DNA of 36,000 nucleotides, taken from Patescibacteria group bacterium. GTDB taxonomy: Bacteria; Patescibacteriota; Patescibacteriia; Veblenbacterales; UBA10138. The translations under genes were made by a program, and so were the position numbers. Numbering within the stretch: position 1 is the first letter of the stretch; each line of letters opens with the position of its first letter. Shown piece after piece: positions 18,999 to 36,000 of this stretch. The stretch lies in contig JAHITT010000005.1 in NCBI GenBank assembly GCA_018817715.1, positions 1 to 36,000 of the forward strand. Reading direction: 5' to 3'. The notes beneath the pieces were generated by a model that made no database searches, was not told the origin of the DNA, and saw only the letters and a list, made by a program, of their open reading frames with translations.

Positions 18999-19007
18999 AT
19001 TATAGCA
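18999..19007 (-). promoter_or_regulatory. extended -10 promoter overlapping the ruvB stop
   Basis: On the minus strand TGC-TATAAT (19007-18999). The TAA inside TATAAT is the ruvB stop codon. It lies 10 nt before the next ATG at 18988. Confidence 0.65.
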
Positions 19008-20034
19008 AGCCTGGGGGCTGACTAGCTGGCGGTTTAAGATTTAAATGCTCATAAGCCGCTTCGGTAACCACTCGACCCCGTGGCGTCCGAGCCAAAAAAC
19101 CAAGCTGCATAAGAAAAGGTTCATAAATTTCCTCAATTGTACCCATTTCTTCGCTTAAAGCCGCAGCAATGGAACTAAGACCAACCGGACCGCCTTTGAA
19201 TTTTTCTATGATAATTCGTAATATTTGCCTGTCTAAATCATCCAAACCCAAAGGATCCACAGCCATTTGATCCAAGGCTTGTTTAGCCAATTCTTTAGTT
19301 ACTAAGCCATCGGCTTTGACCTGGGCAAAATCACGCACTCTTTTTAATAAACGGTTGGCTATTCTGGGCGTGGCCCGGGAACGTAAGCCAATAATTTCAT
19401 CAGCCCCGGGTTTTAAAACCAAATTAAGCAAGCGAGCAGCCCGATCCACTATTTGGACAATCTCCTTAGGCTCATAAAAATTCAGCCGATAAGTCGCCCC
19501 AAATCGATTGCGCAAAGGCCCGGAAATAAGATGGTACTGGGTAGTGGCGCCGATTAAAGTAAATTTAGGCAAATCCAAACGTAAAGTCCTAGCTGACGGC
19601 CCCTTGCCAATTACCAAATCCAAAGCCGATTCTTCCATGGCCGGATACAAAACTTCTTCTATCACCTTATTCAAACGATGTATTTCATCAATAAATAAAA
19701 CATCACCAGCTTCTAAATTGGTTAAAATGGCTGCTAAATCACCGGCCCGTTCAATAGCCGGTCCCGAAGTTACTCTAATGCCGGCCGACATTTCGCGAGC
19801 AATAATATGAGCTAAGGTAGTTTTACCTAAGCCTGGCGGACCATATAACAATACGTGCTCTATCGGTTCTTTGCGCCTTCTGGCCGCTTCTAAAAAAATA
19901 TGTAAATTAGCCTTAACTTGTTCCTGGCCAATATACTCGCTTAAGGTCTTGGGTCTTAATTGGGTGTCTAATTGCTTATCCTCGGTCTGTTCGCTAGCGG
20001 CAATAACGCGAGCCTTAGTATTATCAAGTTTCAT
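19000..20034 (-). CDS. ruvB: Holliday junction branch-migration ATPase RuvB
   Basis: This 344-residue AAA+ motor of RuvAB is complete. It has [18 protein letters not shown], Walker [13 protein letters not shown] (65-76), Walker B and the following motif in [20 protein letters not shown], sensor 1 in TLIGATTQ, and the arginine-finger region [13 protein letters not shown]. The C-terminal winged helix is at about 265-335 ([20 protein letters not shown], then [18 protein letters not shown]). It hexamerises on DNA and is driven onto junctions by RuvA. Its 5' side is divergent from the structured RNA at 20100, with the two promoters sharing the CTTGACAAG segment. Confidence 0.97.
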
Positions 20035-20064
20035 AATATTAAGACTACCATTGTCTATTACCCC

Positions 20065-20093
20065 TTGACAAGAATTGAATAGTATGCTAGTAT
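20065..20093 (+). promoter_or_regulatory. consensus promoter of the structured RNA
   Basis: TTGACA (20065-20070), a 17-nt spacer and TAGTAT (20088-20093). The predicted transcript start is near 20100. It is one of the strongest promoter matches in the window. Confidence 0.85.
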
Positions 20094-20099
20094 CATCTG

Positions 20100-20280
20100 T
20101 TAACCTGATTTGTGGTTAACTTAAAGCCTTTATTCAAATTGGCTTAAATCAACAAACAAAACACCTTTGGGAGCGGTGGCACGACAAGCATAGGGAATCA
20201 TATTATACGGTTGACTCGGGCTTTCAGCTCGGTCTCACCTATATAGATTTTCTTGCCACCACTTCTCAAGGTGTTTTTTT
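20100..20280 (+). ncRNA. unrecognised structured RNA with its own promoter and terminator
   Basis: The transcript would be about 180 nt. Its 5' part has a 7-bp hairpin (GTTAACC, 20099-20105, with GGTTAAC, 20114-20120) and a smaller AAGCC/GGCTT hairpin. Then 20158-20181 pairs with 20257-20280 in a helix of about 24 bp with two mismatches (AAAACACC...GGTGGCA against TGCCACC...GGTGTTTT). The helix encloses CAAG/CTTG and AATC/GATT steps and an apical hairpin GAC-t-CGGGC-tttca-GCTCG-GTC. It ends in a T7 run, so the outer stem doubles as terminator. It lacks the SRP apical motif, RNase P core and tmRNA tag or T arm. 6S RNA is not excluded but its ends pair differently. No open frame covers it. Function unknown. 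Confidence 0.7.
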
Positions 20281-20328
20281 AATGACTTATTTTTACCTTA
20301 AGTTATTAAAACCGTCAAGTATAAAACA

Positions 20329-20358
20329 TTGACTACATGGCCAAAAAAGGCTTAAGAT
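20329..20358 (+). promoter_or_regulatory. possible promoter for the orphan gene pair
   Basis: TTGACT (20329-20334), an 18-nt spacer and TAAGAT (20353-20358), about 40 nt before the first start. It lies after the terminator of the structured RNA, so the pair can be transcribed independently. Confidence 0.45.
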
Positions 20359-20402
20359 AAGGCCACAAAAAATAATTCTTTAAAAATTAAAGAGGTAGCC
20401 CC

Positions 20403-20792
20403 ATGGAAACTGAAATTATTAATCAAATAATAGGCTTAGGCTTGTGGGATGCTGATTTAAAAAAGATTATTCCCACCAATTGGCAGACTAAGGATTATAT
20501 AATCTTATTTAAAAAAAATACTCGGGCCGACATTGCCTGCCGACTTAAAAGAGGCGCTAAAAAGCTCTTTTTCCAACTACCGGATAAAACATTCACTGAT
20601 GAAATTATTTTTTCTAGCCAAGCCAACGACGAAATCAGACCAACCGCTTACAAAATTGTAAAAAAAATAATCAACAATCAACCGATCAGCAACTTATCTT
20701 ACCCTTGTGGCAAATTGTTGCCAATTGGTGAAGAAATAATATTGCAAATCGGCATAATAAATAACGGAGGGGAAAATGCAATTAAGGGTTAA
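20403..20792 (+). CDS. orphan protein A of the plus-strand cassette
   Basis: I do not recognise this 129-residue protein. It is soluble, Ile/Lys-rich and basic, with no signal or membrane helix. A segment near 40-50 (RADIACRLKR) is rich in arginine, and a stretch near 97-112 reads NLSYPCGKLLPIGEEI. The two cysteines are at 46 and 102. It has an AGAGGT ribosome binding site 8 nt before the ATG, better than most genes here. Its end overlaps the next gene by 17 nt, which suggests translational coupling. It sits just after the structured RNA, between leftward ruvB and vanW. No function is proposed. Confidence 0.72.
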   Translation: METEIINQIIGLGLWDADLKKIIPTNWQTKDYIILFKKNTRADIACRLKRGAKKLFFQLPDKTFTDEIIFSSQANDEIRPTAYKIVKKIINNQPISNLSYPCGKLLPIGEEIILQIGIINNGGENAIKG

Positions 20793-21209: not shown

Positions 21210-23096
21210 TTAATTACTAATAGTAGCCGGGTTGTCAGTCACTGAACTATCGGGCAAAACTGATTCATTATCTAATTTTGTGTCTGTTGATAAGGTTCCT
21301 TTGGCCACACCCACCAAACAAACTTCCTGCCAAGGCACATAATGACTTTTAAAAACTTCTTCCTTTACCTGCCCATCGGGATAAGTAACTGTGTAAGTAA
21401 ACTCAGCATCAGCACCATTATGAGCGCTTTCGGTGCATTTTTTTTGGCCAACTGGTAAATCCTCGGTTGAAATAATTTTAGTTGGTGGCGGTTTAACTAT
21501 ATTATAAATTCTAGGATCGGTAGTTATGGTCTGACGACCATCTTTGGTACCCCAAAATTCAAAAATTAAATCATCACCTTGAATTTTAGTTTGTATCAAA
21601 ACAGCTTGGCTACTATCATTAGTAAATCTAAAATCCGGCTTAGGCTCATAAATCGTGGCATCGGTACCGGCCGGTTCATAATAACTCACCCGATAAGAAT
21701 GGTTGCGCCTTTCCACAATTGGTAAACCCGAAGCTAAAGCGGTTCGAAAAGTGGTAGTACCTATTTGACATAAGCCACCACCGTACTCGGGTATGGTTTT
21801 ATTACCTTTAATAACCAACTCCTGTAAGTAACCATTGTCGCCATCTATACTACCCAAGGCCGAAATAAGCGAAAATTCTTCACCTGATTTTATTAAAATA
21901 CCATTTAAACTGTCGGCGCCAACTTTTATATTGTGCCGACGATTTTTTGGACTACCGGCAAAATTGGAACGCCCGACACCTATTAATTCAGCTATACCTA
22001 AATCATTAGTGGCGGCCGTTACTACTTTGGGTTGAGTAACTTTAACCGCCAAAGCTAGTGGTAATAATTGTTTATTTAATAAAGCTGTACTAGCCAATTG
22101 CCAAGTTTTAACCATATCTAATTCTTGGCCGGTTTGAGCAGCCTGAAAGGCTCTAACTCGATTATCCACTATTTCAAATTTGGCGTCCTGGGCTGGTTGG
22201 TTAATTTTCTTGGCTAATCTAAGCCAAAATTCATCATCAATTTGAGGTAATAAACTAATAATCAAATCCTCCTCTTGCTTAACACCCAACCATTTATGCC
22301 ACAGTGTTGGCGGTACAACAAACTCCTCAGTCTTAAAAGAAAAAGTAAGTGGCTGATCAATTAAAAATTCCTTGGCCTTCGGCAACAAAGCTATTAAATC
22401 TTGTTCTATTATGTCAGGTTGGCTCGGTTTAAGATTAAGCAGCACTTCTCTAGATGATAAACTAAGAAAAGCTTGGCTTAAATCTTTTTCTAATTTAACA
22501 GCTTCTATTTGCCAACCGCTTTGCTCGGGCAAAATTGTAATCTTGTCAGCTTCATCTACCAAAAAACTGGCTGGCTTGGTATCTTTTTCTAAATCCGATA
22601 AATTACTACGTAAAAATTCCAAAACTCGATCAATTTTTACTTCCACTAAGCTACTGCTTGATAAATCAAATGTTCGCCAACCAACAATGGCCGGTTCCAC
22701 CATTTTTTTAAACCAATTACCTTGCCGGCCAACCTGCCAGGCTAAAGCTGCTGCGACCTGAGGTTTAAAACTAACTAACTCGTAAGTTAAATCCGGGTCC
22801 GTCGGTGAACTGACCAAAGAGGTTACTACTACTTTTTTTTCTCCATAACCAACAGTTACACCTTGTTTAGCTATTTTATCCCAAGCTTTATTTAAAGACT
22901 CCTCGGCTTCAGTTTGGCTCAAACCGCCCAAATTAACCGAACCAAACATTACATGGGGAAAAATCGTGTTAATTGAAGCTTGCCGATAAACGAATAAACC
23001 AACTATCAAAACCAAAAACAAGCCAATCAGACCATAAAAAATCAACCAATTTAATTTAAAAAACCTAACTTGATTGGTTTTATCCGGTTGAGTCAT
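21210..23096 (-). CDS. VanW family protein with membrane anchor
   Basis: This 628-residue protein has one N-terminal membrane helix (about 15-37). Residues 40-360 form an extracellular region with two peptidoglycan-binding-like (YoaR type) halves. The VanW domain is at about 370-520, containing LNGILIKSGEEFSLISALG, YGGGLCQIGTTTFRTALAS and RRNHSYRVSYYEPAGTDATI. The C-terminal tail is loose and acidic or Ser/Asp-rich. VanW proteins occur beside glycopeptide-resistance genes and as wall-associated proteins elsewhere; their reaction is not known. It overlaps the DUF3006-like gene by 17 nt, the third gene of an hsp20-led operon. Confidence 0.9.
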   Translation of the reverse strand: MTQPDKTNQVRFFKLNWLIFYGLIGLFLVLIVGLFVYRQASINTIFPHVMFGSVNLGGLSQTEAEESLNKAWDKIAKQGVTVGYGEKKVVVTSLVSSPTDPDLTYELVSFKPQVAAALAWQVGRQGNWFKKMVEPAIVGWRTFDLSSSSLVEVKIDRVLEFLRSNLSDLEKDTKPASFLVDEADKITILPEQSGWQIEAVKLEKDLSQAFLSLSSREVLLNLKPSQPDIIEQDLIALLPKAKEFLIDQPLTFSFKTEEFVVPPTLWHKWLGVKQEEDLIISLLPQIDDEFWLRLAKKINQPAQDAKFEIVDNRVRAFQAAQTGQELDMVKTWQLASTALLNKQLLPLALAVKVTQPKVVTAATNDLGIAELIGVGRSNFAGSPKNRRHNIKVGADSLNGILIKSGEEFSLISALGSIDGDNGYLQELVIKGNKTIPEYGGGLCQIGTTTFRTALASGLPIVERRNHSYRVSYYEPAGTDATIYEPKPDFRFTNDSSQAVLIQTKIQGDDLIFEFWGTKDGRQTITTDPRIYNIVKPPPTKIISTEDLPVGQKKCTESAHNGADAEFTYTVTYPDGQVKEEVFKSHYVPWQEVCLVGVAKGTLSTDTKLDNESVLPDSSVTDNPATISN

Positions 23097-35206: not shown

Positions 35207-36000
<794 letters not shown>

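Follow-up and report, generated by a model that had tools for sequence, protein, structure and literature searches.

Only a few stand-alone RNAs are near-universal, namely 6S RNA, signal recognition particle (SRP) RNA, tmRNA and RNase P RNA. 6S RNA (RF00013) is a long rod of ~185 nucleotides (nts) with an unpaired stretch part-way, widespread in single copy and transcribed from a sigma70 promoter, and bacterial SRP RNA (RF00169, RF01854) is likewise a rod-shaped housekeeping RNA. OLE, GOLLD, ROOL and raiA are widely conserved, strongly structured and independently transcribed, and some of these families are found in phages.

The RNA analyzed here belongs mainly to ABY1, a large class of tiny, mostly uncultured Patescibacteria. 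It shares with 6S RNA the stand-alone rod, the unpaired stretch, the widespread single copy and the sigma70-type promoter, but it has no covariance-model match to 6S, its rod is only ~125 nts, and its nearly invariant loop opens on the 5′ strand alone. It shares conservation, strong structure, independent transcription and a phage copy with OLE, GOLLD, ROOL and raiA, but it is shorter, matches no Rfam family and is so far found only in Patescibacteria and one phage. No description of it was found in the open-licence literature, a coverage that leaves out subscription journals and preprints. We class it as a new family within a known kind of RNA, the stand-alone structured bacterial RNA.

The RNA gene and its transcription unit

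All positions refer to the window, that is, the whole stretch of 36,000 nts that was analyzed. Judged from its sequence elements, 20158-20280 of the window is an independent RNA gene with its own promoter, a rod-like hairpin and a U7 tail (Table 1). The promoter is, by the same kind of evidence, a strong sigma70-type promoter with an extended -10: the 872-kb genome of this organism holds just 15 sites that match the pattern TTGACA-N14-TGNTANNNT (0.7 expected from shuffles), one of which is the promoter of this RNA. The predicted fold of 20095-20290 reaches -68.1 kcal/mol against -37.5 ± 3.7 kcal/mol for shuffled sequences (z = -8.2), and none of 200 shuffles equalled it. The leader (20098-20157) forms a weak hairpin only and is not conserved.

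A preliminary description of this DNA had proposed a stand-alone structured RNA, and its own promoter, terminator and covarying fold bear this out. The promoter TTGACA-17-TAGTAT is present at 20065-20093, the RNA is strongly structured, the T7 terminator corresponds to the U7 at 20274-20280, and the apical hairpin is real, with 20213-20222 pairing with 20226-20234. The long helix was correct in its 5′ arm (20158-20181), while its 3′ arm, given as 20257-20280, was 3 nts off and actually lies at 20254-20277.

Table 1. Features of the RNA gene and its neighbours in the window
Feature	Position	Strand	Remarks
Promoter	20065-20093	+	TTGACA 20065-20070; 17-nt spacer ending in extended -10 TGC 20085-20087; TAGTAT 20088-20093
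5′ leader of the transcript, inferred, not conserved	20098-20157	+	Start site inferred
P1, 5′ arm (closing helix)	20158-20181	+	Ends in invariant C20180 A20181; folds and covariation
Near-invariant 10-nt one-sided loop CGACAAGCAU, presumed binding site	20182-20191	+	Alignments
P2 and upper helix, 5′ side	20192-20212	+	Conserved R-G-G-R start; fold and covariation
Apical hairpin, conserved GG/CU pairs (near-invariant G.U)	20213-20234	+	Covariation
Upper helix and P2, 3′ side	20235-20253	+	Ends in UUUUCU; with U20254 G20255 makes the conserved UCUUG
P1, 3′ arm (closing helix)	20254-20277	+	Fold and covariation
U7 tail of the intrinsic terminator, whose hairpin is P1	20274-20280	+	Sequence; most copies have T-runs of ≥4 close to the 3′ end
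ruvB, divergent neighbour, outside the RNA	19000-20034	-	Same order in ABY1 and a related class
vanW, convergent neighbour (Pfam PG_binding_4, VanW, G5)	21210-23096	-	Linkage with the RNA at most loci

Promoter and terminator are conserved among the copies in other genomes, according to the 3′ T-runs and a scan upstream of 132 distinct copies. A perfect TTGACA was found within 160 nts upstream in 102 of the 132, the best promoter site had a 17-nt spacer in 115 and the TG extension of an extended -10 in 94, and a high promoter score was reached by 86 copies versus only 8 shuffled upstream regions. The -10 lay anywhere from 3 to 130 nts ahead of the core, so the conserved RNA does not include the leader.

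Covariation and the conserved internal loop

Relatives were found by BLASTN, using a 201-base query against related genomes. Clear matches came from the same family and short ones from elsewhere, and the convincing ones were all centred on GGCACGACAAGCATRGGR. The first alignment, of 14 BLASTN relatives by MAFFT with no structure supplied, contained two-sided compensatory changes in 28 of the 38 consensus pairs, so that the compensatory change named as a check in the preliminary description proved extensive. When 103 sequences were used, standard pairs filled 88.8% of the pair cells (62.6% when shuffled), two-sided changes numbered 1010 (337 when shuffled) and the covariation score was 0.650 (0.201 when shuffled). 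Sliding the partner by 1-3 columns destroyed the covariation, all such registers scoring far lower. The 103-sequence alignment was itself fitted to the covariance model, and the structure-blind MAFFT result is the cleaner proof.

The alignments show the RNA as a rod consisting of a covarying P1, a one-sided loop, an upper helix, a covarying apical hairpin and an intrinsic terminator. The closing helix and the apical hairpin covary extensively, and between them lies the near-invariant loop. P1 varies freely apart from the C-G and A-U pairs at its upper end, which are invariant. Above it come the 10 nts CGACAAGCAU and then G-G-R, with UCUUG on the other strand, so the core motif of the internal loop reads C-ACGACAAGCAU-GG opposite UCUUG; next come the upper helix and the apical hairpin, whose G.U and G-C pairs are nearly invariant. 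Purines (A/G) alternate at positions facing U, which shows that the plus strand is the RNA, and the nearly invariant G.U pairs also fit this assignment.

The invariance of the loop is partly a matter of ascertainment, with 114 named loci fetched by the loop motif and the model built on motif-bearing copies. It holds also in the loci collected by the covariance model, where the exceptions are L032, L071 and the copies L079 and L080 from another class. The letters of every core allow an alternative pairing of CAAG with CUUG, which is usually less stable (median +1.9 kcal/mol). The conformer in which UUUCUUG on the 3′ strand is paired was favoured in 124 of 130, but its G.U pairs are weak enough that it may open. 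Judging by these letters, a two-state switch via CAAG-CUUG pairing is possible. We also considered an ORF starting at the AUG in the loop, and rejected it since the frames, compared by eye, differ in length and sequence.

The near-invariant 10-nt single strand has the look of a multi-target seed, as would be expected if the RNA were a base-pairing sRNA whose exposed CGACAAGCAUGG strand recognizes rRNA or at least one conserved mRNA, and the 16S rRNA holds an imperfect complement, CAUGGCUGUCGU (window 35657-35668, minus strand), to 10 of the 12 bases of the loop ACGACAAGCAUG, which could be chance. However, no exact 11-nt target recurred in 57 genomes, k-mers complementary to the loop were not enriched at the start sites of the own genome, and the opposite strand UCUUG, which a seed does not need, is equally invariant. 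We consider such a role distinctly unlikely. The loci examined among the 11-nt loop-complement matches were the RNA gene itself or unrelated ORFs.

Distribution, gene order and a phage copy

A covariance model built from the 14 MAFFT-aligned BLASTN relatives matched 336 of the 381 sampled genomes of the same class, nearly always in one copy, and 293 of the 319 that were well assembled (≥90% completeness). In a phylum-wide sample, 37 of 380 genomes were positive, and 31 of these were ABY1. The earlier suggestion of a lineage-specific RNA thus holds at the level of the whole class. Named genomes detected by a scan with the core motif were mostly Falkow-, Magasanik-, Uhr-, Kerfeld-, Buchanan-, Komeili- and Jacksonbacteria, records that we take to be class ABY1; scattered matches in other phyla had no support from the covariance model.

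The RNA was not found near vanW in the well-assembled ABY1 genomes G037, G065, G094, G120, G140, G177 and G192, and it is therefore not strictly essential. Some absences are assembly gaps, because the six RNA-negative genomes that also have no vanW are all fragmentary, and one genome (G068) carries a copy missed by the class-wide search. Outside ABY1, five of the seven genomes of a small related class gave a match, with a short loop that does not contain CGACAAGCAU; since the exact loop is missing there, the contact with its partner is not ancient in that form. Two loci of other lineages are tentative, L278 with a weak model match beside ruvB, and L277 with the same promoter type and a rod.

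Two further observations were made on the side. Family f32 loci (L014, L025 and others) carry two tandem copies ~215-240 nts apart, apparently with one shared promoter and with the second copy apparently within a further outer helix. Two short contigs of G002 (L349 and L350) carry a different repeat with GGTGGCACGACAAGCAATG, followed by a common downstream sequence, and gave no model match.

A VanW-domain protein stays closely linked to the RNA, in no fixed orientation. Its gene is no more than 3.5 kb away in 120 of 146 loci and is unlinked in 26; it is convergent in 89, downstream on the same strand in 12 and upstream on the same strand in 20, and in the convergent loci (n = 89) the median distance between the ends of RNA and vanW is 66 nts. 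ruvB is the divergent upstream neighbour in 19 loci, and the order ruvB, RNA, vanW recurs in ABY1. In the related class the copies sit next to ruvB, vanW or both, arranged as in ABY1, and one copy shows the full order; because the order is shared with that class and L278 also lies beside ruvB, it looks ancestral.

This close linkage, with convergence in the related class too, would fit a cis-acting partner of vanW, either an antisense or 3′-end regulator of the convergent gene or a terminator shared in both directions. Against it, the orientation is not fixed and 26 loci are unlinked, vanW is kept in genomes that do not have the RNA (VanW was present in 33 of 33 well-assembled ABY1 genomes tested, RNA-negative ones included), and G090 retains the RNA with vanW ~24 kb apart. 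A-runs that could terminate vanW were not enriched either, being found in 31 of 88 convergent loci versus 14 of 26 unlinked ones. We therefore regard a cis role as very improbable. A riboswitch or leader of downstream genes is highly implausible. The RNA does lie 5′ of two same-strand ORFs in the window, but these were not found at related loci, so it is not their conserved leader; downstream genes vary, the element is closed by an intrinsic terminator, and where a leader would have a conserved same-strand gene downstream, the usual neighbour is vanW, convergent in most loci. Since neighbours, orientation and the linkage and distance of vanW all vary, we infer that the RNA acts in trans.

A member of the family with the invariant loop is also carried by two IMG/VR contigs, L204 and L205, which are the same phage region from two samples; the copy at L204:4195-4323 is complete, and that at L205:1-115 is cut by the contig end. 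Its neighbours are genes for an Erf-like annealing protein, a ParB-like protein, a PAPS reductase and an exonuclease. A phage copy points to some importance of the RNA, or of its partner, for the phages that these bacteria host. Other viral candidates were rejected: at L336 and L337 the motif lies inside an ORF and has no fold, and the motif matches in L201-L203 are likewise chance.

Relation to known RNAs and the candidate partner

No Rfam 15 family reaches its gathering score at the locus, in agreement with the unknown class assigned by the preliminary description; the five matches with E ≤ 10 inside 19900-20450 all score far under their gathering thresholds and seem to be chance matches. 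On both counts that could have overturned that description, a known Rfam class and a lack of covariation, the outcome was favourable to it. Its exclusion of SRP RNA, RNase P RNA and tmRNA was confirmed by model searches and ARAGORN. The RNase P RNA of the own genome lies elsewhere (236.7 bits), and ARAGORN found no tmRNA in the six contigs of this genome (completeness 99.9%), hence none at the locus; the tmRNA of the organism may be absent, split or diverged.

SRP RNA (RF00169, RF01854) was found in 0 of 19 relatives, and the two weak matches in other genomes (E 0.5-0.9) were both under the cut-off. The ABY1 RNA has neither a match to these models nor the domain IV motif, and the tested genomes have no Ffh M domain to bind such an RNA (PF02978 in 0 of 19, the own genome and 18 ABY1 relatives, versus 14 of 14 controls). 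A crude motif scan found no SRP-type GTPase in the own genome. ABY1 may thus be without a signal recognition particle.

The Ro-binding helix of Y RNA is GGUC-C-GA/UUGACC, and the helix at the loop base of some ABY1 members (GGUC-ACGA/UUGACC, e.g. L023) resembles it, which is a lead only. We give next to no credence to a Y RNA bound by Ro/Rsr, because the protein (TROVE, PF05731) is encoded in only 2 of 38 relatives and not in the own genome, and no tRNA-like module is seen.

The preliminary description had also offered a divergent 6S RNA, which was not supported as a matter of membership. RF00013 gave no match in 19 relatives, a weak negative given that the same search recovered 6S from no more than 5 of 14 control genomes known to have it, and none against the RNA loci even at E ≤ 10. 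Moreover, the conserved loop of 10 nts is open on the 5′ strand and its 3′ strand pairs in the favoured conformer, whereas the 6S bubble is open on both strands. A genuine 6S RNA, related by descent and in function yet highly diverged, would imitate an open promoter with its rod and so bind RNA polymerase, and product RNAs may start in the loop. The rod architecture, the strong promoter, the single copy and the lack of a recognised 6S RNA in the 19 relatives speak for it; in view of the unmatched model and the one-sided loop, we hold it to be unlikely.

The RNA is most likely a trans-acting, protein-binding housekeeping RNA, as far as comparative sequence data can tell. It would be abundant, and the rod would present the loop and UCUUG for docking by a conserved partner in the cell. 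A protein is the likelier partner, rather than an antisense target, since the loop is conserved on both strands and no recurrent target complementary to it was found. The leading specific guess, by analogy, is RNA polymerase, which would make the RNA a 6S-like regulator; we name it because the long rod, the conserved unpaired strand part-way, the strong promoter and the single copy are closest to 6S, and because 6S RNA itself went undetected in the genomes tested. On the whole we lean slightly towards an undescribed, ABY1-wide family of stand-alone RNA that acts in trans through a loop docking a conserved partner, RNA polymerase being the most plausible one. We are evenly divided on a broader proposal, a new class of core RNA in ABY1 and, by synteny, at least one related class, with a partner bound at the loop and phage copies that exploit or decoy it. 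The RNA stands a fair chance of being a core RNA in its own right.

About nine-tenths of the sampled ABY1 genomes thus carry a usually single, strongly promoted and strongly structured RNA that is missing from Rfam 15, while 6S and SRP RNA are undetected in the ABY1 relatives tested and tmRNA in the own genome. It has the appearance of a housekeeping RNA that had been overlooked. With the covariance model, metatranscriptomes can be searched for it directly, and a class-wide RNA with a near-invariant loop offers a handle on transcription, translation or secretion in these reduced cells.
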